Part shown: positions 12,486 through 59,492 of the stretch, one piece after another
Layout of the letters: every line of letters begins with the position of its first letter
How positions within the stretch are numbered: position 1 is the stretch's first letter
NCBI GenBank assembly: GCA_038734275.1
Contig: JAVYOO010000003.1
Span: 62,001-126,000 of the forward strand
From: Archaeoglobaceae archaeon
Lineage (GTDB): Archaea; Halobacteriota; Archaeoglobi; Archaeoglobales; Archaeoglobaceae
Length of the DNA: 64,000 nt
Direction of reading: 5' to 3'
Program-made: the position numbers and the translations under genes
Notes under the pieces: model-generated
The model's input: the letters and a program-made list of their open reading frames with translations, nothing else
What the model was told of the DNA's origin: nothing
Databases searched by the model: none

Positions 12486-12525
12486 AGCTCATAACTACAA
12501 TAATAATGACGAAGGAGGTGATAAG

Positions 12526-12906: not shown

Positions 12907-12907
12907 A

Positions 12908-12940
12908 GGTTTTTTATTTTTTATCGTTATTATTATTTTT
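12908..12940 (+). terminator. T-rich putative terminator after the pilin gene
   Basis: GGTTTTTTATTTTTTATCG followed by further T-rich sequence immediately after the pilin stop has the oligo-T character of archaeal terminators. It could make the abundant first pilin message monocistronic, with partial read-through into the cluster. Confidence 0.4.
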
Positions 12941-12966
12941 GGAAACGCCATAAATTATTTATATGG

Positions 12967-13344: not shown

Positions 13345-13347
13345 AGC

Positions 13348-13713
13348 ATGAACCTAAAAGTCTCAATGCTTATAATTGCATTTTTATTTGTGCTTTTTAC
13401 CTTTTCGAGATCAATCTACCCGCTAAAACACACAGAAGTTGAATTAGAGTTTTTCAATCAAACCAATAACTGTTCTCCAGAAGTCCATGTAAAGATCAGG
13501 CAATTGGGCATCGAAAACGTGATTTCAAGCTGTGTTATATCAAAAGAACCATTAAATGCTAACTGCACAGCAAAAAGGCTTCTTTCAGATGTCAAACTTG
13601 ATTCTGTTTGCATCGATACTGAAAATGCAATATGGTTATTATCGCTATACGGAAAGCAGACGTGGTTCAGCGTAGTTCAGATCGAACTTAGAAACGAGAC
13701 TCTGAGGGTTTAA
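13348..13713 (+). CDS. Small membrane-anchored extracellular protein, unknown
   Basis: A 121-residue protein with an N-terminal signal or anchor (residues 5-22) and an extracellular domain rich in beta-type residues with five Cys, several followed by Asn-Cys-Ser/Thr type sequons ('NNCS', 'NCT'). It starts 3 bases after the pilin-like gene stop and ends one base before the membrane protein gene, so it belongs to the surface cluster. A minor pilin or assembly partner is plausible but not shown. Confidence 0.65.
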   Translation: MNLKVSMLIIAFLFVLFTFSRSIYPLKHTEVELEFFNQTNNCSPEVHVKIRQLGIENVISSCVISKEPLNANCTAKRLLSDVKLDSVCIDTENAIWLLSLYGKQTWFSVVQIELRNETLRV

Positions 13714-13714
13714 A

Positions 13715-15244: not shown

Positions 15245-15253
15245 GGATAAGGT

Positions 15254-15727
15254 TAAAATTTAAGCTGGAAAATTTTCAACTTATTTTTTCTGCTCTCTAC
15301 CTTCCTGATCTACCTCCCCTTCCTAAGCGATGGCGTTGTCAAAACAGGAGTTCGTGACTACTGATTTTTGCTCCCGATCTACATTCCAGTTGCCTATTTT
15401 CTTGCAAAGGCTAAATTCGAAATAGAGCTTCGCTCACTGCCAATTATCGCTCTCTGCTTTGCAATTCCCGCAATTCTGCTCGTTTCTCTTTTAAATATCC
15501 ACGAATTGCTAAGCTTTGCTTATCTTGCAGTCTCTACCGCATTGGCTTTGACTTTCCTTCTCGCGGAGAAATTCAAAAACAAAGCAGAGATCTGCTCTTT
15601 GTCGATTCTTCCAATCATTTTCATTGTTTCAGACGTCACCAAAGCCTACTTCAGCCCATACGACATCCACTTTCTCAATCCACTGCTTGACAGATTCGTT
15701 GAGCTTCTTCTCTGGCTTAAAGGATAA
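15254..15727 (+). pseudogene. Decayed duplicate of the GT-C-like protein C-terminus
   Basis: The reading frame just downstream encodes a copy of the last ~150 residues of the preceding membrane protein: compare 'LPIYIPVAYF', 'ILPIIFIVSD', 'YFSPYDIHFLNPLLDRFVELLLWL' with 'LPLYFPLIYI', 'ILPVVFMISD', 'YFGPYDVHFILPVLDRFSELLFWI'. The homology extends upstream of a TGA at 15362-15364, which falls where the parent has Arg in VRDYRF (a CGA-to-TGA-type change), and probably crosses a frameshift near 15280. No start codon or promoter is seen, so this is a remnant of a tandem duplication rather than a gene. Confidence 0.8.
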
Positions 15728-15908
15728 TATTTATCAATAGCTGAGAAATCTAATCCCAATCCTGAATAGCCTTAGTCTAAAGAGATAAATCGGATTTTGG
15801 CGAATTGGAAATCTGAGCTAAAATATTGTTTAAAGTTAAAAATTCTCCAAATTGAACAAATTACTTTTCCATTTTTGCTAAATTGAATTGGTGGAGCTAA
15901 AAAGAAAA

Positions 15909-15972
15909 CGCGTGCTGTGCTACATGCGTATGCAAGCGTAAGCTTGCTACGCTGTATGCACATGCGAACGCC
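15909..15972. repeat. Inter-module repeat, copy 1
   Basis: Begins CGCGTGCT and ends GCGAACGCCAA like the copies at 16027, 17499 and 19034, but its centre is replaced by the hairpin sequence. Function unknown. Confidence 0.6.
15911..15966. repeat. Imperfect palindrome / hairpin
   Basis: The core GCAAGC-GTAA-GCTTGC (15932-15947) is a perfect stem with a four-base loop. It is extended by GCGTA/TACGC with one bulged base, then more loosely by TGTGC...GCACA out to about 15966. The outer bases (CGTGCT... and ...GCGAACGCC) are shared with the repeats between the toxin-antitoxin modules, so this is the hairpin-forming version of that element. Confidence 0.75.
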
Positions 15973-16026
15973 AATTTTTGATGGCTAAAGTTTTTCAGTC
16001 AAAGAGAATAGAAATCGAGTTATAAA

Positions 16027-16080
16027 CCGCGTGCTACGAAGTGAGGAACTCGCAGAGAGCCACGAAGGAGCGAACGCCAA
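16027..16080. repeat. Inter-module repeat, copy 2
   Basis: CCGCGTGCTACGAAGTGAG at the left and GAGCGAACGCCAA at the right. It lies directly before module 1, and its downstream 90 bases are also conserved before module 3. Confidence 0.65.
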
Positions 16081-16123
16081 ATTCGTAATTTCCTACCCTT
16101 TAGACTTAACCCAAGAAAGAATA

Positions 16124-16169
16124 AAAAGTTAAGCGAAACCTATTTCTATTTTCAAAGCAAACTAAATCT
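16124..16169 (+). promoter_or_regulatory. Conserved upstream box of toxin-antitoxin module 1
   Basis: A 46-base block runs from AAAAAGTTAAGCGAAACC to the base before the antitoxin ATG and is nearly identical in modules 1-3, slightly changed in 4 and 5. It contains a pyrimidine-rich CCTATTTCTATTTT segment about 20-30 bases before the ATG, where an archaeal TATA box would sit, and no ribosome binding site. It is probably the promoter, and possibly also the operator for autoregulation. Confidence 0.6.
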
Positions 16170-16364
16170 ATGCCTAAAATAATTGAAGCAATCTACGAAG
16201 ACGGAGTATTCAAACCATTGGAGAAGGTTGAGCTAAAGGATGGTGAGAAAGCAAAAATCATCTTAGGTTCCATAGCGGAAAGAACATTTGGCATTCTCAA
16301 GGCAAGCGAAGAAGATATAGAGAGAGCATTAGAGGAATTAGAAAATGAATGGGGTTTTTGTTGA
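16170..16364 (+). CDS. Module 1 antitoxin (AF2212-like, DUF104/UPF0165)
   Basis: A 64-residue antitoxin. The N-terminal [20 protein letters not shown]...DGEK half is the beta-strand DNA-binding or dimerisation part typical of the AF2212-like family; the C-terminal half ([20 protein letters not shown]) is a charged helix expected to wrap the toxin. It overlaps its toxin gene by 20 bases, giving translational coupling. The N-terminal half is shared with the other four antitoxins, while the C-terminal half is unique to this module. Confidence 0.88.
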
Positions 16365-16773
16365 TACGAATGTGCTGATTAGACATCTCTCAGGAGACAA
16401 AAGAGCTAAAAAAGTTGTTGAGAAGGTTGAAATGGGTGAAATAGACGGCTATATAAATCAAGTGGTTGTTTCCGAGCTCATACATGTGTATTTGAGGTTA
16501 TTTACCGGAAGAAATTCGGCTTATCTTAAAAAGAATCCAGAAGTGATAAAGGCTGTAAACTTGGAACCAGTTTATGATCTTTTGAATATTTTCAATGAGT
16601 TGAGTTCTTCGGAAATTATTTCAAGGGTTTCAAAGGAGCTCATTATGAAGTATGGGCTTCTTCCAAACGACGCTTTAATAGCTGCAACCTGCAGGCATTA
16701 TGGAATCAGGAAAATAGCCACCTTCGACGAGGATTTTAAAAGAGTAGATTTCCTCGAGGTTTTGGAGCTTTAA
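16345..16773 (+). CDS. Module 1 PIN-domain toxin (VapC type)
   Basis: A 142-residue PIN nuclease. The four acidic active-site positions are present: D in 'FVDTNVLI' (residue 7), E in 'VVSELIH' (residue 44), D in '[11 protein letters not shown]' near residue 109 and D in '[10 protein letters not shown]' near residue 128. VapC relatives cleave tRNA or rRNA. The final 38 residues, from LLPNDAL to FLEVLEL, are shared with toxins 2, 3 and 5, whereas the first 100 residues are not alignable closely. It begins 20 bases before the antitoxin stop. Confidence 0.9.
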
Positions 16774-16846
16774 TTTCTTTAGCTCGACCCATCAATGAAC
16801 TCTTGCAATTCCTAAGTTTCTCTTTTTAATCGCTCAGCGAAGGCTG

Positions 16847-16892
16847 AAAAGTTAAGCGAAACCTATTTCTATTTTCAAAGCAAACTAAATCT
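16847..16892 (+). promoter_or_regulatory. Conserved upstream box of module 2
   Basis: Almost base-for-base identical to the module 1 box, ending directly at the antitoxin ATG. Unlike modules 1, 3 and 5 it is not preceded by a recognisable inter-module repeat; the sequence before it contains CGCTCAGCGAAGGCTGA, a small imperfect inverted repeat. Confidence 0.6.
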
Positions 16893-17078
16893 ATGCCAAA
16901 AATCATCGAAGCGATCTACGAAGACGGAGTGTTCAAGCCACTGGAGAAGGTTGATTTGAAGGAAGGGGAAAGAGTTAAAATAAGGATTGGAAATGTCGTA
17001 GAAAGAACAAAAGGGATAATCAAAGGGTGTGATGTGGATAAAATAATAAAGGAGGTTGAAAATGGAAGTTTTCTTTGA
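16893..17078 (+). CDS. Module 2 antitoxin (AF2212-like)
   Basis: A 61-residue antitoxin. The shared N-terminus ([26 protein letters not shown]) is followed by a module-specific tail ([23 protein letters not shown]). It overlaps the toxin gene by 17 bases, and an internal GGAGG at 17051-17055 serves as the toxin's ribosome binding site. Confidence 0.88.
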
Positions 17079-17481
17079 TTCAAATGTTTTTCTGCACCAT
17101 TTAGCCAACACTCGTGAAGTTGCGAGCAAATTGCTTGAAGACGTTGAAAACGGCAAGATTACTGGATTTATCAACGACGTAGTAGTTTCTGAGGTCATTT
17201 ATGGATATCTGCGTGCCTTAACGAATTTAAAGCCTCATCAGCTTCAATCAAAACTATGCAAAATTGATTTCGATCTCAGCCCCATTAAGGACTTGCTCAG
17301 TTTGTTTCGAGTTCTTTCCTGCAGTTTCGGTGTGGAAGTTGCTGAAATCGTCGAGAAATACAAGCTGCTCCCGAATGACGCCTTAATCGCTGCGACTTGC
17401 AAGCATTATGGGATAAAAAAGATCGCTACTTTCGACGAAGACTTCAAGAGGGTAGATTTCCTCGAGGTTTTGGAGCTTTAG
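17062..17481 (+). CDS. Module 2 PIN-domain toxin (VapC type)
   Basis: A 139-residue PIN nuclease with acidic positions in 'VFFDSNVFL' (D6), 'VVSEVIYGY' (E near 44), '[11 protein letters not shown]' and '[10 protein letters not shown]'. The ATG at 17062 is 6 bases after GGAGG; a TTG two codons earlier is less likely. The last 38 residues are the common C-terminus. At the DNA level many third codon positions in that block differ from modules 1 and 3, yet the protein is conserved. Confidence 0.9.
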
Positions 17482-17498
17482 AATTTATTTTCATTAAT

Positions 17499-17550
17499 CC
17501 ACGTGCTACGAAGTGAGCAATCTGAAGGATAGCGAAGCGGCGAACGCAAC
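17499..17550. repeat. Inter-module repeat, copy 3
   Basis: CCACGTGCTACGAAGTGAG at the left and GGCGAACGCAAC at the right. The next 85 bases up to the module 3 antitoxin also match the region before module 1, showing that element and promoter were duplicated as one piece. Confidence 0.65.
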
Positions 17551-17589
17551 TTCTTGTAATTCTATCCTTTAGACCACCCAGAAAGAATG

Positions 17590-17635
17590 AAAAGTTAAGC
17601 GAAACCTATTTCTATTCTTAAAACAAACTAAATCT
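17590..17635 (+). promoter_or_regulatory. Conserved upstream box of module 3
   Basis: The same AAAAGTTAAGCGAAACCTATTT-type block as modules 1 and 2, with TTCTTAAAACAAACTAAATCT before the ATG. It is the presumed promoter or operator. Confidence 0.6.
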
Positions 17636-17830
17636 ATGCCTAAAATAATCGAAGCAATTTACGAAAACGGAGTATTCAAGCCATTGGAGAAGGTTGACTT
17701 GAAGAATGGAGAGAAGGTGAAGCTAAAGATAAGTAAAGGTGTAGCCAGAAAAGTAGCGGGGATTTTAAAAGCTACAGATGAAGAAGTAAAAAAAGCGTTC
17801 GAAATGGTTGAGCATAAGAGTATTTATTGA
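17636..17830 (+). CDS. Module 3 antitoxin (AF2212-like)
   Basis: A 64-residue antitoxin with the shared N-terminus ([26 protein letters not shown]) and its own C-terminal helix (RKVAGILKATDEEVKKAFEMVEHKSIY). It overlaps the toxin gene by 23 bases. 'GILKATDEE' resembles the 'GILKASEED' of module 1, so tails 1 and 3 are more closely related to each other than to 2, 4 or 5. Confidence 0.88.
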   Translation: MPKIIEAIYENGVFKPLEKVDLKNGEKVKLKISKGVARKVAGILKATDEEVKKAFEMVEHKSIY

Positions 17831-18239
17831 CTCGAACGTAATAATAGATCTTCTGAGGGGAAAGGATAAAGTTGTGAACTTTTTTGAGCTAATAGATTCT
17901 GAAGAGATCGTTGGTTTTACAAACAAGATCGTATTTTTGGAAACAATTCATGTGTATTTGATACTCAAAACCGGAAAAGGTCCAAAAGAGCTAAGAAAAA
18001 ACCGCGGATTTATCAAAGAGGTTTCACTCTCCCCGATACTGGAAGTCTTTGAAATCATGGAGATCCTTCCAATCGATTCAATTTCGAACGAGGAAATTTC
18101 CAGAATTGTAAATATTTACGGTTTACTTCCCAACGACGCTTTAATAGCTGCAACTTGCGAGCATTATGGAATAAGGAAAATAGCTACCTTCGACGAGGAT
18201 TTTAAAAGAGTAGATTTCCTCGAGGTTTTAGAACTTTGA
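17808..18239 (+). CDS. Module 3 PIN-domain toxin (VapC type)
   Basis: A 143-residue PIN nuclease starting at a TTG inside the antitoxin gene. Active-site acids: D in 'VFIDSNVII', E in 'VFLETIHVYL', then D in '[11 protein letters not shown]' and D in '[10 protein letters not shown]'. The common C-terminus is present. The residue pattern of the central part ('LILKTGKGPKELRKNRGFIKEVSLSP') echoes module 1 ('[26 protein letters not shown]'), showing that toxins 1 and 3 are sister copies. Confidence 0.9.
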   Translation: MSIRVFIDSNVIIDLLRGKDKVVNFFELIDSEEIVGFTNKIVFLETIHVYLILKTGKGPKELRKNRGFIKEVSLSPILEVFEIMEILPIDSISNEEISRIVNIYGLLPNDALIAATCEHYGIRKIATFDEDFKRVDFLEVLEL

Positions 18240-18245
18240 GTTATT

Positions 18246-18270
18246 GCATGCTACAAGGTAGTGAAGACCA
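18246..18270. repeat. Inter-module repeat, copy 4 (eroded)
   Basis: GCATGCTACAAGGTAGTGAAGACCAA retains only the left part of the repeat (GTGCTACGAAGTGAG in other copies). The right part is not recognisable. Confidence 0.35.
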
Positions 18271-18327
18271 AATTCTACTATTCGTTTAAGTAAGCTCAAC
18301 GAAGTTTAGAATTTCAAAGTTTAGAAG

Positions 18328-41700: not shown

Positions 41701-43359
41701 ATGGTGCTGAAAGGTCTTCCTTCCACGATGAATGATGAATACCAGCTTAATTTACATAAGATTCTTCAGCATGCTGCAAAAGTTCACGATGAAGTTGAGG
41801 TGGTCTCTTATAGAACTCTCCAGAACGGAAAGGTTCACACTTTCAACTATATGCAAATATATGAGCGGGTCTGTGCAATGGCAAACGCACTTCAGGAGCT
41901 TGGAATTAAGCCTGGGGACAGGGTTGCAATTTTGGGATGGAACGACCATAGATACTTTGAGAGTTATTTCAGTGTTTCTGGAATTGGAGCGGTTTTGGTG
42001 CAGTTAAATATCAGACTTCATTTAAACGAGCTAGCATACATCGTGGATCATGCTGGTGCGAAAGCGCTGTTTTTCGACGATACTCTTGTGGAGCTGGCAG
42101 AAAGACTTGCAGAGAAGCATAAATTCGATCTCTACGTGCTCATGAGCGATAAGAGTTTGGAGGAGATCAAAACCAAACTGAAACCTCTTTACCATTATGA
42201 GGAACTCATTGCCAAGCATCCAAAGAGGAGAGAGTGGGAAGACATCGAAGAGAAATCCGCAGCCACCGCATGCTACACCGCTGGAACAGCGGGAAATCCA
42301 AAAGGTGTTTTTTATTCACATAGAGCTCTTATTTTGCAGGCACTCACATCTGCCGCCATCTTTAATTTAAACTCACTGGACGTCTACCTTCAAATTGTGC
42401 CATTCTACCACGTTAACGGCTGGACTTCTCACCTTGCATGTCCAATGGTTGGTGCAAAGTTAATCCTCCCGGGTTTATATAATCCCGTGCATTTAACAAA
42501 CATATTACTCAATGAAAAAGTCACAATAGCCTCCGGAGCTCCAGCAATTCTCTCTCCAATTCTGGAAGTTCTAAAAAGAATTGCTCCAAGCACAAGACTC
42601 GAAAAGCTTAGGCTGATTAGCGGATCAACAGAACCTCCGCTGGAAATGATCAGAAGCTATGCGGAGCTTGGGGCGAAAGTTATCCACGCTTACGGTGCAA
42701 CCGAGACATCACCACTTGCAACTGCAAACATTCCAAAGCCCCATATAATGATGAGGAGTGAAGAGGAACGATTTAATCACATGAAAAAGCAGGGATTGTT
42801 CGTTTTTGGAGTTGAGGCGAAGCTTGTTGAACCTGGCACGGGAAAAGAACTCCCATGGGATGGTAGGAGTGTTGGAGAACTTTGGCTTCGCGGGCCATGG
42901 ATTATAAAGGAGTATTATAATGATCCAAGGACAAAGGAAAGTGTGACTGAAGACGGATGGTGGAAGAGTGGAGATGCCGGAACTATAGACGAATTGGGTT
43001 ATTTCCACATAGTGGATAGGCTAAAGGACATAATAAAGAGCGGTGGGGAGTGGATTCCAAGTGTGGATCTCGAGAAAACTCTTATGAGTCATCCATATGT
43101 CTATGAGGCAGTGGTTATAGGCATACCGCATCCTCGGTGGGGAGAAAGACCTCTTGCGCTGGTAGTTCTAAAGAGCCCATACAGAAACAAGGCGAAAGAT
43201 CAGATTGAAACTGAACTCCGGGAGCACATGCTTAAGAGGTTTGCAAGATGGCAACTGCCAGATAAGATTCTTTTTGTAGAAGAAATTCCCAAAACAAGTG
43301 TCGGAAAAATAAACAAGCGAGTTCTTCGAGAAAAATATAGAGACATCTACATAAAATAA
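41701..43359 (+). CDS. AMP-forming acyl-CoA synthetase
   Basis: A 552-residue adenylate-forming ligase. Motifs: P-loop 'YTAGTAGNPKGVFYSH' near residue 198 (Ala in place of the usual Ser and Thr), 'HAYGATETSPLA' near residue 330, 'GDAGTIDELGYFHIVDRLKDIIKSGGEWI' near residue 425 and the catalytic Lys in 'PKTSVGKINKR' near residue 540. Length and 'HVNGWTSHL' segment fit the medium/long-chain acyl-CoA ligase group. It is followed after a 287-base gap by a Liv-type transporter and CoA-transferases, all in the same direction. Confidence 0.92.
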   Translation: MVLKGLPSTMNDEYQLNLHKILQHAAKVHDEVEVVSYRTLQNGKVHTFNYMQIYERVCAMANALQELGIKPGDRVAILGWNDHRYFESYFSVSGIGAVLVQLNIRLHLNELAYIVDHAGAKALFFDDTLVELAERLAEKHKFDLYVLMSDKSLEEIKTKLKPLYHYEELIAKHPKRREWEDIEEKSAATACYTAGTAGNPKGVFYSHRALILQALTSAAIFNLNSLDVYLQIVPFYHVNGWTSHLACPMVGAKLILPGLYNPVHLTNILLNEKVTIASGAPAILSPILEVLKRIAPSTRLEKLRLISGSTEPPLEMIRSYAELGAKVIHAYGATETSPLATANIPKPHIMMRSEEERFNHMKKQGLFVFGVEAKLVEPGTGKELPWDGRSVGELWLRGPWIIKEYYNDPRTKESVTEDGWWKSGDAGTIDELGYFHIVDRLKDIIKSGGEWIPSVDLEKTLMSHPYVYEAVVIGIPHPRWGERPLALVVLKSPYRNKAKDQIETELREHMLKRFARWQLPDKILFVEEIPKTSVGKINKRVLREKYRDIYIK

Positions 43360-43548
43360 TTTTAATTTGGATGGCATAAGATGATGATAATGTTTATAAT
43401 AATAAACAGGGACATGGTAGGCTATTTGATAAATATTAGACATACTTAGAATTGTAATCTCCAGTAAGGTGCCCGCAGAGAGCCTGAAATGGCAAAATCT
43501 CACTCCAAATCCAGTATAAAAAAATAAATAAACATGAAAAAAGCATAA

Positions 43549-43559
43549 TTTTTAAATAC
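43549..43559 (+). promoter_or_regulatory. TATA-like box of the Liv-type operon
   Basis: TTTTTAAATAC is the strongest TATA-like sequence in the spacer. A start site about 25 bases downstream falls at 43580, the first base of the short leader frame. Confidence 0.5.
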
Positions 43560-43579
43560 TACTCCAAAACCAAATATTC

Positions 43580-43645
43580 GTGTTGCTGAAATCAGATTCA
43601 GATAAGAGATTCGGTGTGATTAAAGGAATAGAGGAGGGTGGTTAG
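43580..43645 (+). CDS. Possible 21-residue leader peptide of the Liv-type operon
   Basis: GTG opens a 22-codon frame (MLLKSDSDKRFGVIKGIEEGG) whose start coincides with the predicted transcription start and whose TAG ends one base before the livH GTG. The livH ribosome binding site GGAGG (43633-43637) lies inside it, so translation of the leader could couple to or block livH. There is no comparative support. Confidence 0.3.
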   Translation: MLLKSDSDKRFGVIKGIEEGG

Positions 43646-43646
43646 G

Positions 43647-44519
43647 GTGTTGGATGTCCTGTCTCTCATATTGGCATATACTTTCGTAAACGGATCCATG
43701 TATTTGGGGATGGCGCTGGGATTTACAATAACTACAGGAGTTCTCAGAGTATTCAACTTGGCATACGGAGCGATTTTTCTAATCGCAGTCTACGGGACAT
43801 GGATGTTTTGGAACGACATCGGTCTTGGGCTATTGGAATCTATCTTGTTGTCCATAGTTCTTGTGGCGGCCTTCACTTACGTTGTTTATAGAGCAGTAAT
43901 ACTGAAGTTTGCCGCACTTGAGGATTACATGCTTGCAGCACTCGTAGCGGTTTTTGTGATAGTTGAAGAACTCATTGGTTATGCTTATCCAGAAATCGTA
44001 GGGGTATATATACCAACGACGATTTACAATGAGCTTGTCCCATTCGGTGAGGCAAATGTTCCGGGGCAGTATGTAGTCACCGCTCTGGTATCGCTTGGTC
44101 TGCTGGCAATATACCTGATATTTTTCACAAAGACGAAGAATGGTTTCATCATGAGAGCCATAAGTCAGGACATGTTTGCTTCGAAGCTCGTTGGAGTAAA
44201 CTTTAACAGGACTTTTGCACTAGCAATGGTAATCGCTTCCATACCTCCAGCGATCGTAATGCTGCTAATCTCCCCAATATGGGCACTGAATCCATACATT
44301 GGGTGGACAGTTTTCACAATAGCAATACTCGTTGCGGTTCTTGGTGGGCTTGGAAACCTTAAGGGAAGCATTATGGCAGCTTACATCATAGGTTTCATCC
44401 AGGCTATAGTGGGCTTCTTGCTGGATCCAAGGTTAATGCTTCTGGTTGCGTTGGTTGTGGTTATGATTGTGCTGGTCATTCGTCCGAAGGGATTGGCAAG
44501 AGCAGAAACTATATGGTGA
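43647..44519 (+). CDS. Liv-type ABC transporter permease (LivH)
   Basis: A 290-residue inner-membrane permease with about eight hydrophobic segments. 'FVNGSMYLGMALGFTITTGVLRVFNLAYGAIFLIAVYG' and 'AVLGGLGNLKGSIMAAYIIGFIQAI' match LivH of branched-chain amino acid/amide-type transporters (HAAT). I chose the GTG at 43647, which is 9 bases after GGAGG; the GTG at 43638 would directly abut it. The substrate is probably not a branched-chain amino acid here because the operon includes CoA-transferases. Confidence 0.88.
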   Translation: MLDVLSLILAYTFVNGSMYLGMALGFTITTGVLRVFNLAYGAIFLIAVYGTWMFWNDIGLGLLESILLSIVLVAAFTYVVYRAVILKFAALEDYMLAALVAVFVIVEELIGYAYPEIVGVYIPTTIYNELVPFGEANVPGQYVVTALVSLGLLAIYLIFFTKTKNGFIMRAISQDMFASKLVGVNFNRTFALAMVIASIPPAIVMLLISPIWALNPYIGWTVFTIAILVAVLGGLGNLKGSIMAAYIIGFIQAIVGFLLDPRLMLLVALVVVMIVLVIRPKGLARAETIW

Positions 44520-44525
44520 TGCGTA

Positions 44526-45599
44526 ATGGTAAAGTTTGAGGCGAGAAGGGGTAGAATAATTATTCATACATTTGGAAGAAAATACGAATGGACAGTAGAA
44601 CCCAGATACTGGAGAAACCCGATAATAGGGCTAATTATATGGCTTTCTATACCCTTTATCATTTACGTGCTGGCAACAGAGGTTTTTAACTACCAGCCAA
44701 TTGCTCTGCTATCGACTTTAATCTTTGCAAACCTGTTGATCATGATGGCCGTGCCGTTTAATCTTCAAACCATTGGCACTGGCCGTCTAAGCTTTGGCCC
44801 GCACTTCTTCTTGGCGGTGGGTGGTTATACTGCGGCACTTTTGAGCAGAGATTATGGACTCAGCCCAGCATTGACATTTCCAGCTGCATTCTTTTTGGGT
44901 GCATTGATCGCCTTGGCGATAAGCCCAATAACGATAATTTCGAGGGGAGTTTACTACGTCCTGATAACATTGCTCTTACCATTCATCTTGGCGGAGATTA
45001 CTTACTGGCGTTCCGACATTTTCGGTGCTGAAACGGGAATTCCAAACGTTGGACTCATGTTTCCGACAACGGGCAACGTTACTCTCGATGTTATGATCTT
45101 TGTTTACATTTCGCTTGCAATCGCCTTGGCCTTGGTGTTCTTTGTGGATAGAACCCTCAGATCGAGATACGGCTTCATGATGGGTGTTATAAACGAGGAC
45201 GAGGACGTTGCCAGATCATACGGAATAAACGTCAATCAAATAAAAATCATAATATTTACACTTACAAGTGGAGCGATGGCGATTTCAGGATGGTTTTTGG
45301 CCCATTATCAGGGTTCGTTCACAGGAGCAGCATGGCTAACTCCGTCTTTTCTTATCATGGTGCTTCTGACCGCAACGCTGGCGGGCAAGGGTGCAATTTA
45401 TGGAGTTGTTATTAGCGCATACATAGTTGCAACTCTAAGAGAAGTGACGAGAGTGACTTTTGGCGAGCTATCAGTCGTGGCCCTGTTCTTAATTCTGCTA
45501 CTGCTACTTTACTTCCTTAGAGAGGGATTCTGGGGTCTTTACAGAAAGAGAAGGTATAGAGAATACGAGCCAAGCATTAGGGTTAGGAGGCAGGTCTGA
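44526..45599 (+). CDS. Liv-type ABC transporter permease (LivM)
   Basis: A 357-residue permease of the LivM type: about ten hydrophobic segments, 'MMAVPFNLQTIGTGRLSFGPHFFLAVGGYTAALL' near residue 80, 'RSRYGFMMGVINEDEDVARSYGINV' near residue 222 and 'LLTATLAGKGAIYGVVISAYIVATLRE' near residue 280. The N-terminus carries an extra hydrophilic 30 residues. It starts 6 bases after livH; GGTGA precedes the ATG. Confidence 0.9.
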   Translation: MVKFEARRGRIIIHTFGRKYEWTVEPRYWRNPIIGLIIWLSIPFIIYVLATEVFNYQPIALLSTLIFANLLIMMAVPFNLQTIGTGRLSFGPHFFLAVGGYTAALLSRDYGLSPALTFPAAFFLGALIALAISPITIISRGVYYVLITLLLPFILAEITYWRSDIFGAETGIPNVGLMFPTTGNVTLDVMIFVYISLAIALALVFFVDRTLRSRYGFMMGVINEDEDVARSYGINVNQIKIIIFTLTSGAMAISGWFLAHYQGSFTGAAWLTPSFLIMVLLTATLAGKGAIYGVVISAYIVATLREVTRVTFGELSVVALFLILLLLLYFLREGFWGLYRKRRYREYEPSIRVRRQV

Positions 45600-45608
45600 G
45601 GTGGTCAA

Positions 45609-46337
45609 ATGCTTAGGGTGTCAAATTTAACAAAGAGGTTTGGAGGAATTATCGCAGTAAACGATGTGAGTTTTAAAATCGAAAAAGGAGAAATAGTTGG
45701 ACTCATAGGGCCAAACGGGGCAGGAAAGAGCACATTGGTTAATCTTATTTCTGGATTTTATTCCCCGGATAGCGGAAAAATCGAATTCAACGGGTTAGAC
45801 ATAACAAAGAAGAAGATGCACGAGAGAGCAAAACTGGGAATAGCAAGAACGTTCCAGAATCCGAGATTGATTCCAAACATGACCGCTCACATGAACGTTC
45901 TTTACGCAATCCTCGGGAGCAAAGAGGGTAAAAAGCTCACGATGACTGAAGCGGGAGCTGAAGCAATCTATTATCTTGATCTTTTTGGATTGCTGAAGAA
46001 AAGAGACGTTTTAGCTGCGGACTTAGCAATTTACGAGCTGAGACTACTCGAGCTTGCGAGAGCTCTTGCTTTAAAACCAAAACTTTTGCTTATAGATGAG
46101 GCAATGGCAGGATTAAACCCTGCGGAGGCTGAGAGCGTTTCGAAGCTCATAAACAGAATAAGAAACGAATTTGATCTTACGATTATATGGATCGAGCACG
46201 TGCTCAAAGTCTTAATGAGATCCGCGGAAAGAGTTCTTGTGATGCACTATGGAAAGCTCATAGCTGATGGAAAGCCGGAAGAAGTTGTTAGAAAGCCTGA
46301 GGTTATTGAGGCTTATATAGGAGAGGAAGAAGTATGA
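45609..46337 (+). CDS. Liv-type ABC transporter ATP-binding protein (LivG)
   Basis: A 242-residue ATPase. Walker A 'GPNGAGKSTLVNLISG' near residue 37, the LivG-specific 'GIARTFQNPRLIP' (Q-loop) near residue 90, and Walker B 'LLLIDEAMAGLNPAE' near residue 163. The signature loop reads 'LAADLAIYELRLLELARALA' instead of LSGGQ, so it is degenerate. That is odd, though LivG often has 'LPYGxQ'. It overlaps livF by an ATGA. Confidence 0.9.
   Translation: MLRVSNLTKRFGGIIAVNDVSFKIEKGEIVGLIGPNGAGKSTLVNLISGFYSPDSGKIEFNGLDITKKKMHERAKLGIARTFQNPRLIPNMTAHMNVLYAILGSKEGKKLTMTEAGAEAIYYLDLFGLLKKRDVLAADLAIYELRLLELARALALKPKLLLIDEAMAGLNPAEAESVSKLINRIRNEFDLTIIWIEHVLKVLMRSAERVLVMHYGKLIADGKPEEVVRKPEVIEAYIGEEEV
45688..45733 (+). 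repeat. 46-base identity shared with livF, copy 1
   Basis: The Walker A coding region from GAGAAATAGTTGG to AAGAGCAC is identical at 46413-46458 in livF, including third codon positions, although the flanking sequences are not. Confidence 0.85.
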
Positions 46338-47041
46338 TGAGCGTTGAAGACCTACAGGTTTGGTATGGAAAAATACTGGCTGTGGATGGAATATCGATCA
46401 AAGTTGAAAAAAGAGAAATAGTTGGACTCATAGGGCCAAACGGGGCAGGAAAGAGCACGATAATGAATTCTATAATTGGCGCTGTAAGGCCAAAAAAGGG
46501 AAAGATAACACTGAATGGGGAGAATATAATGAATTTACCTACCTACGAAATTATAAAAAAGGGTGTTACTATAGCACCTGAAGGTAGAAAGCTCTTTCCG
46601 TATCTTACGGTTGAAGAGAATCTGTTGATGGGAGCAATAAATGGTGAAGCTTGGAAGAAAAGAAAGAGTTCTTTGGAATTTATATATTCAAAATTCCCAA
46701 GATTAAAGGAAAGAAGAATGCAAATGGCTGGAACACTAAGTGGTGGGGAGCAGCAGATGCTCACGATAGCCAGAGCTTTGATGTCATCTCCAAAACTCCT
46801 ATTAATCGATGAACCAAGTTTAGGTTTGGCTCCAAAGATTTCTATGGAAGTATATAGGCTTATAAAGTCTCTTAGAGACGAAAACAAGATAACAATACTT
46901 CTTTCAGATCAAAATGCGAGGAGAGTTCTCCAGATAAGCGATCGTGCTTATATCATAGAGAACGGAAAAATAAGGATGGAAGGGGCAAGTGAGGAGTTGG
47001 CAAAGAATGAGGAAGTTAGGAGGGTGTATTTGGGCCTATGA
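46334..47041 (+). CDS. Liv-type ABC transporter ATP-binding protein (LivF)
   Basis: A 235-residue ATPase: Walker A 'GPNGAGKSTIMNSIIG' near residue 36, 'APEGRKLFPYLTVEENLLMG' near residue 85, signature 'TLSGGEQQMLTIARALM' near residue 137 and Walker B 'LLLIDEPSLGLAP' near residue 158. It has the canonical signature loop that LivG lacks. It overlaps the CoA-transferase gene by an ATGA, so transporter and transferases are one operon. Confidence 0.93.
   Translation: MMSVEDLQVWYGKILAVDGISIKVEKREIVGLIGPNGAGKSTIMNSIIGAVRPKKGKITLNGENIMNLPTYEIIKKGVTIAPEGRKLFPYLTVEENLLMGAINGEAWKKRKSSLEFIYSKFPRLKERRMQMAGTLSGGEQQMLTIARALMSSPKLLLIDEPSLGLAPKISMEVYRLIKSLRDENKITILLSDQNARRVLQISDRAYIIENGKIRMEGASEELAKNEEVRRVYLGL
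46413..46458 (+). repeat. 46-base identity shared with livG, copy 2
   Basis: Partner of the block at 45688-45733. It covers the Walker A codons. Confidence 0.85.
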
Positions 47042-48354
47042 GGGACTATTTCAGTTATGTGGAATCTTTATTTAGGGAAGGAGAGAAAAGAGAACCACCT
47101 CTTAAGGGACTTAAAGTTGTTGAGCTTACGCACTTCGTCTTTGGACCTAACGTAGGCAGAATTTTAGCCCAGTTCGGCGCAGAAGTAGTTAAAATAGAGA
47201 CACCAGGGGAAGGAGAACGTTACAGGCTTGCAGCAGTATTTGGAAGATACTACAACAGAACAAATCTGGTTTATGGAATCCAGAATGCGAACAAGTATTT
47301 CATAGCTGCAGATGCGAGAAATCCAAAGGCGAGGCAAATAATCTTTGAGCTTGCAAAAAGGGCAGATGTTTTTGTAGAGAACTTTAGAGCAGGTCTGGCA
47401 GACTTAATGGGTGTTGGGTATGGACAGATAAGTAAAGTGAACCCAAGAATTATCTATGTAAGCTGTTCCGGTTTTGGACAATTTGGACCATTGAGCAGGT
47501 CACCGAGTTTTGATGTTGCAGCGCAGGGAGTCGCTTCCTTAGCTGTGAAAACCGGCTGGGAAGACGTAGACGAGTTTTACAAACTGCCGGACTACTTTGG
47601 GGATTATCTTCCATCGATGATGGTCGTTTTTGCAGTGCTCAATGCCCTTTACTACAGAGAGAAGACTGGCAAAGGACAGTATATCGATGTATCGCAAACA
47701 GAGAGTCTACTCAGATTTATGTATGACATATCCTACTATAGCCTCACTGGTGAAGAAATCGGCAAAACTGGGAATATAGACCCATGTGCTAGTCCATCCG
47801 GGATCTTTAAAACTCTGGATGAGAAATTCGTTGCCATAGCAATAATGACCGATGAACAGTTTAAGGCGCTTTCCTCAGTAGTTGAGGGATTAAAGGGTGA
47901 GAATCGATTGAGAAAAGAAAAGATCAGGGAGCTTAATCAAATCCTTGAAGAATGGGTTTCAAAGCACAAATTGGATGAAATAATTGAACTCTCCAAGAAA
48001 CTTGGCTTTCCGGCTTCACCAGTGTTGGGGGATGTAGAAGTTTACAGAGATCCTTGGAGATGGGAAAGAAAGAGTATAGTAAAGCTTTTGGACCGTCTAT
48101 ATGGCGAAATCCCAGTTCCAGGACCTTTTGTAGCGATGAGTGCGACTCCAGGAGAGATCAAGTGGCTTGCAAGACCGGTTGGCTACCATAACAGGCTTGT
48201 GCTAAAGAAATGGCTTGGTATGAGCGATGAAGAAATAAAGAAGCTCGAAGAGGAGGGAGTGATAGGCTACTGGGATGAAATGCCTGGCTGTGCTCCCCCG
48301 CCGATATGGGATGCGGAAAAAGACCCGGTGTTCAGAGGTGAGAGAGATGAGTAG
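47038..48354 (+). CDS. CaiB/BaiF-family (class III) CoA-transferase, first subunit
   Basis: A 438-residue class III CoA-transferase. 'LKVVELTHFVFGPNVGRILAQFGAEVVKIETPGEGE' near residue 25, 'NPRIIYVSCSGFGQFGPLSRSPSFDVAAQGVASL' near residue 140 with the catalytic-type Asp in PSFD, and 'GKGQYIDVSQTESLLRF' near residue 215. Such enzymes move CoA between acids such as carnitine, oxalate, succinate and aromatic acids. It immediately follows livF and is followed by a paralogous partner, probably a heteromeric enzyme. Confidence 0.92.
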   Translation: MRDYFSYVESLFREGEKREPPLKGLKVVELTHFVFGPNVGRILAQFGAEVVKIETPGEGERYRLAAVFGRYYNRTNLVYGIQNANKYFIAADARNPKARQIIFELAKRADVFVENFRAGLADLMGVGYGQISKVNPRIIYVSCSGFGQFGPLSRSPSFDVAAQGVASLAVKTGWEDVDEFYKLPDYFGDYLPSMMVVFAVLNALYYREKTGKGQYIDVSQTESLLRFMYDISYYSLTGEEIGKTGNIDPCASPSGIFKTLDEKFVAIAIMTDEQFKALSSVVEGLKGENRLRKEKIRELNQILEEWVSKHKLDEIIELSKKLGFPASPVLGDVEVYRDPWRWERKSIVKLLDRLYGEIPVPGPFVAMSATPGEIKWLARPVGYHNRLVLKKWLGMSDEEIKKLEEEGVIGYWDEMPGCAPPPIWDAEKDPVFRGERDE

Positions 48355-49552
48355 AGATGAAACTTTAATGAAGTTATTTGCTGAAGACAATAAACCGTTT
48401 GCTTTAGAGGACATAAAAGTTGCAGAAATCGCCGGAGAAAATTTTGCAGGAGCAATAGCTGGCTCATTGCTTGCTGAATTTGGAGCAAAGGTTATCAGAG
48501 TGGATTTTAATGATGATCCAAAGAAGATAAGCCCATATGGAGTAGAAGTAAATGGGTGTGGGATTCCACTGCTTGTGGAAAGCAGAAATAAGGAGTTTGT
48601 CAAATTCAATGAAAAAGTGAAAGAACAGATCATGTCCTGCGACATTGTGATCGATGGAATGAAGCCAGGATATCTGGATTCTATTGGCATTGGTTACAGA
48701 CAGATTTCTGAAAAAAATCCGGGCGTTATATACGTTGCGGTTTCTCCCTATGGGCATTTTACTCAAAAAGCAAGGGAATTTGCTAATGTTCCCGATTCAG
48801 ATTTAACTGCTCAGGCTTATAACGGATACCCAAGTCTAATAGGAAATCCCTACCTTACTGGGAAATATTCCTACCCATTGAGAGCCGGGATATGGGCAGC
48901 TTGGGCGATGGCAGGAGTTAATGCAGCAATTGGGGCCATGCTTGCTTTAATTGAAAGGAAAAAGAGTGGAAAAGGGCAATTCGTTGACGTTGCCACTCAT
49001 GATGCACTCGCAGTAGTCCACGCGTTTCCGACGATAGTAGGCTTCTTGTTTGATAAATCGAGAACGAGATACGGGACTCTGGATTACATCCTGTATCCCT
49101 TTGGGTATTATAAAGCAAAGGATGGCTACATAGCACTGGCAACCCCCACGGATCCTGACTTTAGAGCATTGCTAAAGATTATCAAGAGGTGGGATTTGGA
49201 GCCGGACTGGAGATATTCCCTTGATAGAATTTCGGATGATCCTGTTAAGATCAAAACACTGGATGAGGAGCTTAACAAGGAATTACAGAAGTATACTGTT
49301 AAAGAACTGGTGGCAAAAGCGAGAAAGAAATCAAGGAGTAAGCTCATAGGGAGATTTCTTGGAGCCCCTGTCATAGTAAAGCTAAACAGATTGCAGGAAG
49401 TCCTCAAGGATCAGCACTGGAAGATCAGAAATACATTTATCTCTTTCAGCCCTAATGGAAAAGAGATTCTGGTTCCAAATACTGCAATAAAGATGTCCGA
49501 AACACCACCGCGAATCGTGAAGATTTTGGGCAAAGAAGTGAAGAAGTCCTAA
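48347..49552 (+). CDS. CaiB/BaiF-family (class III) CoA-transferase, second subunit
   Basis: A 401-residue paralogue: 'IKVAEIAGENFAGAIAGSLLAEFGAKVIRVD' near residue 22, 'NPGVIYVAVSPYGHF' near residue 125, the 'DSDLTAQAYNGYPSL' segment with the candidate catalytic Asp near residue 148, and 'KGQFVDVATHDALAVVHA' near 210. The ATG at 48347 follows GAGGTGAG by 5 bases. It overlaps the first subunit by 8 bases. Pairs of such genes encode heterodimers in aromatic (for example benzylsuccinate or phenyllactate) pathways, which is a hint only. Confidence 0.9.
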   Translation: MSRDETLMKLFAEDNKPFALEDIKVAEIAGENFAGAIAGSLLAEFGAKVIRVDFNDDPKKISPYGVEVNGCGIPLLVESRNKEFVKFNEKVKEQIMSCDIVIDGMKPGYLDSIGIGYRQISEKNPGVIYVAVSPYGHFTQKAREFANVPDSDLTAQAYNGYPSLIGNPYLTGKYSYPLRAGIWAAWAMAGVNAAIGAMLALIERKKSGKGQFVDVATHDALAVVHAFPTIVGFLFDKSRTRYGTLDYILYPFGYYKAKDGYIALATPTDPDFRALLKIIKRWDLEPDWRYSLDRISDDPVKIKTLDEELNKELQKYTVKELVAKARKKSRSKLIGRFLGAPVIVKLNRLQEVLKDQHWKIRNTFISFSPNGKEILVPNTAIKMSETPPRIVKILGKEVKKS

Positions 49553-55604: not shown

Positions 55605-56480
55605 ATGAAAATAGGTTTTGTTGGTGCGGGCAGAGTTGGAAGTTTATCTGCTTATGCTTGCCTTACAAACATGGATCTCAACGAAATTGCCTTGGTTGAC
55701 ATTGCAGAAGATTTGGCTGTTGGTGAGGCTATCGATCTATCTCATGCGGGTGCGTTGCTTGGCAAATTCCCAAAAATCGTTGGCGGAACTGATTACTCTT
55801 TGCTTAAAGGTTCCGAGGTGATTGTTGTAACTGCTGGCTTTGCAAGAAAACCGGGAATGACGAGGCTGGATCTTGCAACGAAGAACGTTGAAGTTATGCG
55901 GGAAGTTGTTAAGAACATTGTAAAGCACTCTAAGGAGAGCAAGATCCTTGTCGTGACGAATCCGATGGATCTCATGACCTATGTCGCATGGAGGGAAAGC
56001 GGGAAGAAGCGTGAAGAGGTTTTTGGAATGGGGAGCTTGCTTGACTCTGCAAGGCTTATGCAAAGACTGAACTCGATTGGAATAAGATCAGGAAAGGCTT
56101 GGATCATTGGAGAGCATGGAGACAGCATGTTCATCGCAGAAAGCCTTGCGGAAGTTAAGGCAAACTGGGAGCAGGTTGAAAAGGAAGTAAGGCAGATCGC
56201 TGCAGAAGTTATCAAGAGAAAAGGAGCAACTGTTTATGGGCCCGGCACAGCAGTTTACAGAATGGTTAAGGCGGTTGTTGAGGACACAGGCGAGATCATC
56301 CCGACGAGTGTTGTGCTAAACGGGGAGTATGGGATAAAAGATGTAGCCCTTGGAGTTCCCGCAAGGCTAAGCAAAAATGGTGCTGAAGTGGTTGAGCTTG
56401 AGCTGAGTGAAAAGGACTTGGAGAAGCTGAGGAATTCTGCTGAAATCCTGAAGAAATGGATAAAAGATATAGGATATTGA
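55605..56480 (+). CDS. mdh: Malate dehydrogenase (LDH/MDH family)
   Basis: A 291-residue NAD(P)-dependent dehydrogenase. 'GFVGAGRVGSLSAYACL' Rossmann loop, 'AGFARKPGMTRLDL' with Arg in the specificity loop (malate rather than lactate, from family knowledge), 'NPMDLMTYVA' and 'IGEHGDSMF' with the catalytic His. Length and sequence resemble the short A. fulgidus MDH. Part of the (incomplete) TCA cycle. No operon partner. Confidence 0.94.
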   Translation: MKIGFVGAGRVGSLSAYACLTNMDLNEIALVDIAEDLAVGEAIDLSHAGALLGKFPKIVGGTDYSLLKGSEVIVVTAGFARKPGMTRLDLATKNVEVMREVVKNIVKHSKESKILVVTNPMDLMTYVAWRESGKKREEVFGMGSLLDSARLMQRLNSIGIRSGKAWIIGEHGDSMFIAESLAEVKANWEQVEKEVRQIAAEVIKRKGATVYGPGTAVYRMVKAVVEDTGEIIPTSVVLNGEYGIKDVALGVPARLSKNGAEVVELELSEKDLEKLRNSAEILKKWIKDIGY

Positions 56481-56481
56481 A

Positions 56482-57732
56482 TTATTTCGTCCTCAGGCCT
56501 GTAAGAGCAACAAATATTCCAAGAATAGCCAATAGTGCCACAAATGGGAATACCATGAGGTAGGCTCCAAAAAGATCCTTTGACTGACCCGCAAGAAGGT
56601 TACCAATGACTGCTCCCGCTCCATAGGCTGTGTAAACAATACCGTAATTCCTTGCGTAGTCTTTTGTTCCAAAAAGAAATGCGGTGGCTGTTGGAGCTAT
56701 CGCGAGCCAGCCTCCAAGATTTAGCCATAAAATTGCAAAGGAAAGAGTGTATGCAATAATAGATGTGGGATTGAGGAAAATGCTCAGGGAAGCAAGAAAG
56801 ATCAAAGAGAAGGAGAGAATAGCGGTTCTCATAACTCCGATTTTATCTGTAATGAATCCAAAAAGAGGTCTCCCAATCCCATTGCATAGGGCAAATGGAA
56901 CGATCAAAGCGGTGAGCAGAATTGAGATTTGCGCTTCGCCAATTCCCGCGTTTTGAGCGACTTCAAGCCCTGCGGGTTTTGATATGCCTATTGCCATAAG
57001 TCCCGCTAAAGTTCCAATCATAAAAGATGCCCACAATCCATAAAATTGCCTTGTTCGGATCATTTCTTCTCTTCTAAGCTCCATAAACACTTTTCTTTTC
57101 TCCTCGTGCATTGTCCACCCCGCAGGTCTCCATCCTTCTTGTGGAAAGCTTAAAAAAGTGGCAAAAAGCAAAATTAGAATGAAGAAGAGAACTCCAAGAA
57201 TCCTAAATGTCAAAATTACTCCAAAATTAACTGCCAAGAAGTCAAAAACAGGAGCGATTATGGCTGCAGAAACCCCAAAGCCGAACAACGTTATACCAAG
57301 AGCTAAACCTCTTCGATCGGGGAACCATCTTCCAACTGACACAATAGGGCAATTGTATGCAACTCCAACGCCAATACCGCCTATAACTCCATATAAAACC
57401 GCTAAATCGAGCGGAGAAGATGCAAATGAGGCTGAAAACCACCCCAATCCGACTAAAATTGCTCCGAAGTATGCAACCTTTCTCGGACCAAATTTTTCTA
57501 TATACTTACCCGCTATCGGCATTGTAATTGCGAAGAACAAGAGAAAGACGATGAATGGGATCTGCATCTCAGTTGCAGAAACCCTGAGCCCAAGATCTTC
57601 GAACAGCTTCCTTAAATGCACCTGAATAACGCTGTATGAATAAATTGAACCGAGACAAAGGTTTATGATAAGCCCAGAAATAACTATGAACCACCTGCTC
57701 CCCTCAGCTTCCGGCTTGGAGAATTGATCCAT
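56482..57732 (-). CDS. MFS transporter of the OFA (oxalate:formate antiporter) type
   Basis: A 416-residue 12-helix major facilitator. N-terminal 'GSRWFIVISGLIINLCLGSIYSYSVIQVHL' and 'GGIGVGVAYNCPIVSVGRWFPDRRGLALGITLFGFGVSA' near residue 100 are the OFA-subfamily signatures; 'GIGRPLFGFITDKIG' near residue 265 is the half-symmetry motif. Members exchange organic anions. It converges on mdh with a 1-base gap, and is divergent from the PHA genes. Substrate unknown. Confidence 0.88.
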   Translation of the reverse strand: MDQFSKPEAEGSRWFIVISGLIINLCLGSIYSYSVIQVHLRKLFEDLGLRVSATEMQIPFIVFLLFFAITMPIAGKYIEKFGPRKVAYFGAILVGLGWFSASFASSPLDLAVLYGVIGGIGVGVAYNCPIVSVGRWFPDRRGLALGITLFGFGVSAAIIAPVFDFLAVNFGVILTFRILGVLFFILILLFATFLSFPQEGWRPAGWTMHEEKRKVFMELRREEMIRTRQFYGLWASFMIGTLAGLMAIGISKPAGLEVAQNAGIGEAQISILLTALIVPFALCNGIGRPLFGFITDKIGVMRTAILSFSLIFLASLSIFLNPTSIIAYTLSFAILWLNLGGWLAIAPTATAFLFGTKDYARNYGIVYTAYGAGAVIGNLLAGQSKDLFGAYLMVFPFVALLAILGIFVALTGLRTK

Positions 57733-57850
57733 TGATCGCACCAATTGTTAAAATTGCAGTAAGATAAAAATTTAACTAAGGTTTCCGACTTTAAATTTCA
57801 CAATTATTTGATTAAGAAAAGTTTAAATTTTAACTGGAGTATTCTTAAAT

Positions 57851-58399
57851 ATGATGGATTCAAAATACTTTGAAGAGGTTTTCAAAACCGCAAAAGCTTT
57901 TAATGAGTTCTTTTTAACGGTGACGAATCCGAGGACTTATTTTAAGGAGCTTACAGAAGAGGAATTGAATGAATTTTATAAAAATAGTGTAAAGCTTATT
58001 TTTGAGCTAAACAAAGCCTACTGGGGCTTTTTAAATGACTTAACAAAAGCATTTGCGAAGAGAGACGCCGAGGAGATTGCAAGATCCATAGGAAATGCAA
58101 TGGCGAGAATTGAGGAGATCTATGCAGAGTATATGGACAACGCAGTTGTTTCTGCATGGGTTAATGCGATCAACAGTGCCTACATGCGAACCTTGCTGAA
58201 TTTGCAGAACTTTACAAGTGCTATTCTGCATTCTCTCGGAATGGTCTCGAGAAAAGACGTGATTGCCCTTTCTGAAGCTTATGTGGATCTTAAAGGAGAC
58301 ATAAAGAAGGAGTCAAGGAAAATACTGGAGGAGATTAGGGTTTTAAAGGAAAAGATTGAAAAACTTGAAAAAGAAGGAGGTGCTTCCAATGTTCAGTGA
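57851..58399 (+). CDS. phaE: Class III PHA synthase subunit PhaE-like
   Basis: A 182-residue helical protein placed immediately before phaC and overlapping it by 11 bases. 'EFFLTVTNPRTYFKEL', 'NKAYWGFLNDLTKAF' and 'YLNLQNF'-type helices plus a C-terminal Lys/Glu coiled coil fit the weakly conserved PhaE subunit (short archaeal form) that activates PhaC. The identification rests mostly on the neighbour, as PhaE sequences diverge widely. Confidence 0.75.
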   Translation: MMDSKYFEEVFKTAKAFNEFFLTVTNPRTYFKELTEEELNEFYKNSVKLIFELNKAYWGFLNDLTKAFAKRDAEEIARSIGNAMARIEEIYAEYMDNAVVSAWVNAINSAYMRTLLNLQNFTSAILHSLGMVSRKDVIALSEAYVDLKGDIKKESRKILEEIRVLKEKIEKLEKEGGASNVQ

Positions 58400-59492
58400 G
58401 GTGCTTAGGAATTACAGAAGGGCTTTAAAGCTTACCGAGTGGTTTATAAAGAATTCTAATTTTCTGCCAATTACCGAGGACAAGCCTTATCTAATCCCAG
58501 ATGTTGAAGTTGGAGCAACACCAAGAGTTGAGATCTCCTCAGACGACGGAGTAAAGCTTTATCGATATGAGCCAAGAACAGAAAAGCAATACGAAGTGCC
58601 ATTGCTGATCGTTTACGCTTTGATCAACAAGCCATACATTCTTGATCTGACGCCGCAGAGAAGTGTGGTGCGAAAACTGCTCGAAGCGGGCTTTAACGTT
58701 TATATGATCAAGTGGGGCGATGCTACGATTGCGGATCAGTTCTCTTTGGACAGCTACATCGACATTTTCCTTGCTGACTTTGTAGAAGACGTCAAGAGAG
58801 ATGCAAATTCAAACAAAGTTTCGATCCTCGGCTACTGCATGGGTGGCGGAATGAGTGCAATGTATACCGCACTTTATCCCGAGAACGTGAAGAACATAAT
58901 CTTCCTTGCCTCAACCCTTTACTTCGACAAGAAAATTGGCGGACTCATGACTCTCTCAGATAAAAGATTCTTCAATCCCGAAGAAATTGTTGCGCCCTTT
59001 GGTTATGTGCCCTCATGGTTTTTGACTGAGAGATTCAAGATCCTCGAACCTTGGGGCAACTATTTTGGCAAATACATCAACCTGTTCATGAATGCTGAGG
59101 ATGAGGAATTCATAGATGACTTCTTCAGAATGGAACGCTGGATCCACGATGGTGTTAATGTTGCTCCCGGGGCTTATGTGAGATACAACCAGGAGCTTTA
59201 CCAGAACAACGCGCTTGCGGAAGGAAAGCTCTACATTAAGGGAAAGAGAGTTGATCCAAAGAAGATCACAATGCCGGCCGCAGCTGTTGTTGGCTTAAGA
59301 GATCACTTGGCACCACCAGAAAACACGCTGAAATTCTTGGATGTAATCGGAAGCAAAGACAAGGCAGTTTTCAAGGCTGACGTTGGCCATGTTGGACTTG
59401 TGGTTTCACGTCGAGGAATGGCTTTGTGGGATGAAGTCGCGAAGTGGCTTGCAGAAAGAAGCGGAAGCTTAAAGAAGACAAAAGAGATCTGA
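58389..59492 (+). CDS. phaC: Class III poly(3-hydroxyalkanoate) synthase subunit PhaC
   Basis: A 367-residue alpha/beta hydrolase-fold synthase that polymerises hydroxyacyl-CoA. The lipase-box-like 'GYCMGGGMSAMYTALYP' carries the nucleophilic Cys near residue 155, Asp is in 'VVGLRDHLAPP' near residue 305 and His in 'DVGHVGLVV' near residue 335. 'SVVRKLLEAGFNVYMIKWGDA' is typical of PhaC. The ATG at 58389 is preceded by AAGGAGGTG. An archaeal PhaEC pair is best known from haloarchaea. Confidence 0.9.
   Translation: MFSEVLRNYRRALKLTEWFIKNSNFLPITEDKPYLIPDVEVGATPRVEISSDDGVKLYRYEPRTEKQYEVPLLIVYALINKPYILDLTPQRSVVRKLLEAGFNVYMIKWGDATIADQFSLDSYIDIFLADFVEDVKRDANSNKVSILGYCMGGGMSAMYTALYPENVKNIIFLASTLYFDKKIGGLMTLSDKRFFNPEEIVAPFGYVPSWFLTERFKILEPWGNYFGKYINLFMNAEDEEFIDDFFRMERWIHDGVNVAPGAYVRYNQELYQNNALAEGKLYIKGKRVDPKKITMPAAAVVGLRDHLAPPENTLKFLDVIGSKDKAVFKADVGHVGLVVSRRGMALWDEVAKWLAERSGSLKKTKEI

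Follow-up and report, generated by a model that had tools for sequence, protein, structure and literature searches.

The operon studied here is best read as encoding the import of an organic acid and its activation by CoA transfer, with a product that probably feeds beta-oxidation. It lies in a window of 64,000 nucleotides, the whole stretch of DNA analyzed, from an Archaeoglobaceae archaeon with a genome of 1.73 Mb that is 99.5% complete. In this operon the core of a Liv/HAAT-type importer, made up of two permeases and two ATPases, is joined to two class III CoA-transferases (LivHMGF-CoAT1-CoAT2). According to our sequence comparisons the coupling of importer and CoA-transferase is real and conserved, survives rearrangement and spans another phylum. 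An earlier note on this DNA had already proposed import followed by CoA transfer. The conserved coupling, the two-subunit signature of the transferases and precedents for organic acid import by Liv-type systems support that proposal, whereas the arguments taken from a neighboring ligase and from the missing binding protein do not stand. A literature search found no report of a LivHMGF-CoAT1-CoAT2 cassette.

Gene coordinates and Pfam matches (Table 1) confirmed the description of LivHMGF and two class III CoA-transferases within positions 43647-49552, including the overlaps between the genes. Both permeases match BPD_transp_2, both ATPases match ABC_tran and both transferases match CoA_transf_3. 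LivH and LivM are separated by 6 bp, LivM and LivG by 9 bp; ATGA overlaps are present at LivG/LivF and LivF/CoAT1, and CoAT1 and CoAT2 overlap by 8 bases. The mechanically called reading frame of LivH begins at GTG 43638, three codons before GTG 43647, and the latter is the preferred start since it fits the conserved start of the relatives better.

Table 1. Features of the LivHMGF-CoAT1-CoAT2 operon and its upstream region (positions in the window).
Feature	Position	Strand	Evidence
AMP-forming acyl-CoA ligase, fatty-acyl type (neighbor, non-core)	41701..43359	+	PF00501 + PF13193
Gap, slot of the LivK-like gene in relatives; TATA-like element at ~43540-43569	43360..43646	+	
LivH-type permease	43647..44519	+	GTG start; PF02653
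LivM-type permease	44526..45599	+	PF02653
LivG-type ATPase	45609..46337	+	PF00005 + PF12399
LivF-type ATPase	46334..47041	+	PF00005
CoAT1, class III CoA-transferase subunit, catalytic Asp D189	47038..48354	+	PF02515, 293 bits
CoAT2, class III CoA-transferase partner without catalytic Asp (W186)	48347..49552	+	PF02515, 191 bits

The gene upstream of the operon encodes AMP-binding and its C-terminal domain and scores 530 bits with the NCBIfam model PRK06187 (long-chain-fatty-acid--CoA ligase), above the cut-off of 476. The ligase is located upstream on the same strand, as previously described, but is not part of the unit: a gap of ~290 bp containing a TATA-like element lies in between, and, outside the window genome, the two adjoin in L005, L006 and L010 alone, the closest relatives. 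Because the more distant cassettes lack the ligase, comparison of the neighborhoods places it outside the core unit. The TATA-like element precedes LivH and thus suggests that the genes from LivH to CoAT2 have their own promoter, apart from the ligase; it resembles the sequence before the binding-protein gene (SBP) and LivH in L006 and L010, although these matches are weak.

Alignment of the two transferases to E. coli Frc showed that Asp169 of Frc corresponds to D189 in CoAT1 and W186 in CoAT2. The equivalent of D189 is present in every CoAT1 homologue examined; CoAT2 homologues that cover this position carry W, S, T or Y, and none carries Asp. The same distribution is seen in the solved benzylsuccinate CoA-transferase (9fn0), where the Asp is found in chain B (directly aligned in one comparison and one step off in the Frc alignment) and is missing from chain A. 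CoAT1 matches 9fn0_B better and CoAT2 matches 9fn0_A better. Because one subunit with and one without Asp are found as in the chains of 9fn0, CoAT1 and CoAT2 most likely form one heteromeric enzyme. The models for oxalate, formyl-CoA, mesaconate and glutarate CoA-transferases all stay under their cut-offs, the best being formyl-CoA transferase (182 vs 504 bits). The window genome encodes a further class III CoA-transferase at C9:58722-59821, which is split in two overlapping frames (profile positions 1-129 and 127-366), reflecting either a frameshift or an assembly error.

CoAT1 orthologues with 70-100% identity were found in 10 of 59 Archaeoglobi genomes (next match 45%). LivM orthologues (63-100% identity, next match 31%) are present in the same ten genomes and in no others. 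Such a co-occurrence would arise by chance in about 1 in 6e10 cases if the genomes were independent; they are related, hence the value is not a clean probability. Genes flanking the cassette are gyrB, the ligase and DPH6-like genes in the window clade, and other genes in L052 and L053. The same seven genes are found reordered as LivG-LivF-CoAT1-CoAT2-SBP-LivH-LivM in the Bathyarchaeon L011, surrounded by genes for a 3-hydroxyacyl-CoA dehydrogenase, thiolases, acyl-CoA dehydrogenases and an enoyl-CoA hydratase, together with one HpaB-like gene. Within the class of this Bathyarchaeon a close CoAT1 is present in 1 of 257 genomes, which is the source genome. Since the neighborhoods differ and the link survives the change in gene order, the coupling appears to be more than chance.

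The absence of a binding-protein gene from the window operon, reported in the earlier note, is correct for the operon. LivK-like proteins are encoded elsewhere in the genome, though, so that the substrate cannot be deduced from this absence. Exactly between the ligase and LivH, L006 and L010 carry a gene for a LivK-like lipoprotein, and in L007, L009, L011, L052, L053 and L055 a LivK-like gene is located directly upstream of LivH. In the window genome and in L005 a gap of about 290-300 bp takes the place of this gene; its borders match the sequence of the relatives on both sides, and a search of the gap in both genomes detected no recognizable remnant of a binding protein. Judged by this comparison, the missing gene is peculiar to the window genome and one close relative and is a local loss.

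Peripla_BP_6 genes are present at three further places in the window genome. The genome search for a lone LivK-like protein yielded SBP1 (C1:310-1809), an intact protein of 499 amino acids with PF13458 and a lipobox-like start. A LivK gene elsewhere together with amino-acid-linked regulation had been named in the earlier note as speaking against its reading, and of these two only the LivK half applies. In the binding-protein tree three related groups are found: A (orphan, with SBP1), B (in-operon, L006 and L010) and C (orphan). Group B is gone from the window genome and from G053, and group A is kept in both. LivH and LivM are the sole Liv permease pair of the genome. SBP1 belongs to a subfamily that is sister to the in-operon one, which counts against the reading and leaves its match to the LivHM permease putative. 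The simplest reading is that one transporter is served by dispersed binding proteins, and the more distant SBP2 (C1:266k) might serve LivHMGF as well. The group C gene is in pieces, with the last 295 residues found alone at C1:339354-340238. A signal-peptide-like start is located behind SBP1 at the edge of contig C1 (C1:116-214); a rearrangement, an insertion or an assembly break may have split the gene. AlphaFold models were poor, with a mean pLDDT of 55 for CoAT2 and 56 for the binding protein.

In the proposed pathway, the SBP1 lipoprotein encoded elsewhere would hand the acid over to the ABC transporter LivHMGF, which would then import it; both the direction of transport and the class of acid are predictions. 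CoAT1, the subunit with the catalytic Asp, and its non-catalytic partner CoAT2 would assemble into a heteromer and move CoA from an acyl-CoA donor, with succinyl-CoA and acetyl-CoA as candidates, onto the acid. CoA transfer would spare the ATP of a ligase, and the acyl-CoA product would enter beta-oxidation. Aromatic, fatty and dicarboxylic acids are all possible substrates.

This reading is favored because of precedents in the Liv family, the beta-oxidation context in the Bathyarchaeon, the beta-oxidation genes of the window genome and co-induction of comparable genes in A. fulgidus. Liv-family binding proteins are not confined to branched-chain amino acids: in Rhodopseudomonas palustris such proteins took aromatic, fatty or dicarboxylic acids as ligands, or amino acids of other kinds (PMC3223731). 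In this species the LivK-family system CouPSTU, whose genes cluster with that of its CoA ligase, handles cinnamic acids (PMC3610893). On a Caballeronia and a Haladaptatus plasmid, Liv operons that begin with a distant relative of the binding protein are found near acyl-CoA synthetase and enoyl-CoA hydratase genes, the Haladaptatus operon also having acyl-CoA dehydrogenase, MaoC and 3-hydroxyacyl-CoA dehydrogenase genes nearby. Searching the window genome for beta-oxidation genes revealed a large set, comprising 11 loci for acyl-CoA dehydrogenases and 8 strong ones for 3-hydroxyacyl-CoA dehydrogenases; none of the beta-oxidation genes is within the window operon, which counts against the reading. 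In A. fulgidus, genes for a branched-chain ABC transporter, an acyl-CoA synthetase and an acyl-CoA transferase are co-induced on 2-methoxyphenol and, as that study reports, similarly on H2/CO2 (PMC8359953). Like CouPSTU/CouB (PMC3610893), the window operon combines a Liv-type ABC importer for organic acids, as predicted here, with an enzyme making CoA thioesters. In contrast to that system, which uses an ATP-dependent ligase, it has a cotranscribed, probably heteromeric CoA-transferase and a binding protein encoded elsewhere. The logic of import and activation is plausible more than astonishing, and the fixed archaeal cassette with its Asp/no-Asp pair would be a testable variant of it.

Members of the same permease and ATPase families also form E. 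coli LivKHMGF and the archaeal and bacterial Urt urea transporters, and the subunit set is the same when the orphan binding protein is counted. This resemblance to Liv and Urt models would fit an importer of amino acids or amides, the usual annotation of such systems, with the CoA-transferase acting on the 2-oxo or 2-hydroxy acids formed from them, in a pathway that resembles HadA/FldA and leads to a 2-hydroxyacyl-CoA dehydratase. We consider this unlikely. Unlike these transporters, the operon is cotranscribed with CoA-transferases, and its proteins score far under the cut-off of every LivH/M/G/F and UrtB-E equivalog model (LivG 215.8 vs 362 bits, LivF 246.3 vs 441 bits, UrtB 80 vs 250 bits). 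A HadBC-like dehydratase cluster is present in nine of the ten genomes of the genus, and the activase is seen in the window genome; however, the dehydratase is unlinked to the cassette and is also found in G046, which has no cassette. Moreover, HadA and FldA are single-type enzymes, whereas the window pair has one subunit with and one without the Asp. The nearest solved binding proteins, which are only weakly similar, are mostly labeled as amino-acid binding, which counts against organic acid import. The label 'branched-chain amino acid transporter' is over-used, and the window operon provides a clean archaeal case in which conservation favors an organic acid.

It had also been noted that paired transferases of this class are known for aromatic and alkylsuccinate substrates. 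The two-subunit signature was borne out, but the tree joins the window pair to no characterized pair: it groups neither with BbsEF nor with CaiB, in a tree built with partial reference sequences only, whose references stand on long branches apart from the two archaeal families. Within 200 of the 207 kb of Aromatoleum plasmid 1, no phthalate CoA-transferase pair was seen that could serve as reference. BbsEF (PDB 9fn0; PMC10818641) is likewise the product of two neighboring class III genes, only one of which encodes the catalytic Asp. The shared split and the best matches of each subunit to its BbsEF counterpart would be consistent with a BbsEF-like CoA-transferase specific for alkyl- or arylsuccinates and a transporter importing these compounds, as would the Bathyarchaeon cluster, in which a BbsB-like thiolase-fold protein adjoins a DUF35-like gene. 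This appears improbable, since the tree with its partial references placed neither BbsE with CoAT2 nor BbsF with CoAT1, and no bbs beta-oxidation genes were found in or near the window operon or in the Archaeoglobi cassettes read. The window pair also differs from BbsEF in its coupling to a transporter. The Bathyarchaeon protein reaches 239 bits with the BbsB model against a cut-off of 750, and thiolase-DUF35 gene pairs are common in archaea.

CoAT1/CoAT2-type pairs without Liv genes occur in other Archaeoglobi, in genomes that we take to be A. fulgidus, Ferroglobus placidus, Geoglobus ahangari and A. sulfaticallidus; the A. fulgidus pair is, by its position, probably AF0973-0974. The pairs of A. 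fulgidus, Ferroglobus and Geoglobus are uncharacterized; they are homologous to the window pair (36-45% identity for CoAT1) and have the same Asp/no-Asp split, but have no Liv genes next to them and are adjoined by others, such as those for a sodium-solute symporter, an acyl-CoA dehydrogenase and ligases. Their presence counts against organic acid import and would agree with one transcript serving two separate functions, in which the Liv importer has no relation to the CoA-transferase and the latter acts in internal metabolism. We give this explanation little credence, since among the 59 genomes every one with the transporter orthologue also has that of the transferase, and the link persists after rearrangement. 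A single-subunit carnitine-type transferase, also raised previously, is disfavored by the CaiB equivalog scores (110 and 75 bits vs a cut-off of 413) and by the Asp/no-Asp pair.

Methyl-coenzyme M reductase (Mcr), the key enzyme of methane metabolism, is encoded in five genomes of the genus, including the window genome, which is that of a heat-loving archaeon. Because the genus carries this enzyme, the window genome would belong with or near Ca. Methanomixophus and Ca. Methanoglobus, which were described as hot-spring Archaeoglobi (PMC7380581, PMC10945360). It is possible, if doubtful, that a presumably methanogenic archaeon bearing Mcr has a dedicated, ATP-sparing module for import and CoA transfer of an external organic acid. 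Kept as a single transferable cassette in both Archaeoglobi and a Bathyarchaeon, such a module would supply organic carbon to metabolism alongside C1 metabolism, perhaps from a substrate that lacks a known archaeal importer. A module with a two-subunit CoA-transferase would then operate in genomes that can carry Mcr, where the use of organic acids has been little tested. Since the binding protein and both transferase subunits are amenable to expression, ligand screening could reveal the substrate with no need to grow the organism, and the answer would hint at the role of the uncharacterized pairs in Archaeoglobus, Ferroglobus and Geoglobus.

In L007 (JZ_75_SW_bin_109, 306-18288) the cassette is located between F430-biosynthesis-like genes and mcrBDCGA, with McrB and McrA confirmed by Pfam; the genes next after the cassette in L009 are a Usp gene and Mch. 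A tie to methanogenesis, considered for the mcr neighborhood in L007, was rejected since the distribution of the cassette does not follow that of Mcr. The window genome contains a benzoyl-CoA-reductase-like cluster (C1:94152-101865), in which two CoA-dehydratase activases, two HGD-D subunits and two acyl-CoA dehydrogenases are encoded in a row, with scores under curated cut-offs. A tie to this cluster was discarded as well: within the genus, its HGD-D pair is seen only in the window genome and in G046, which is without the cassette.

Further along the window (55605-57744), an MFS transporter scoring above the cut-off for L-lactate MFS transporters (348 vs 320 bits) adjoins a malate/lactate dehydrogenase-like gene, a pair whose sequences suggest lactate use. 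At 57851-59492 a small PhaE-like gene with no family match precedes a PhaC-like gene for a class III polyhydroxyalkanoate synthase, which remains below the cut-off (304 vs 365 bits) and contains a G-Y-C-M-G motif. In G053 an orphan binding protein of the Liv system is encoded a few genes downstream of the PhaC-like/PhaE-like pair.
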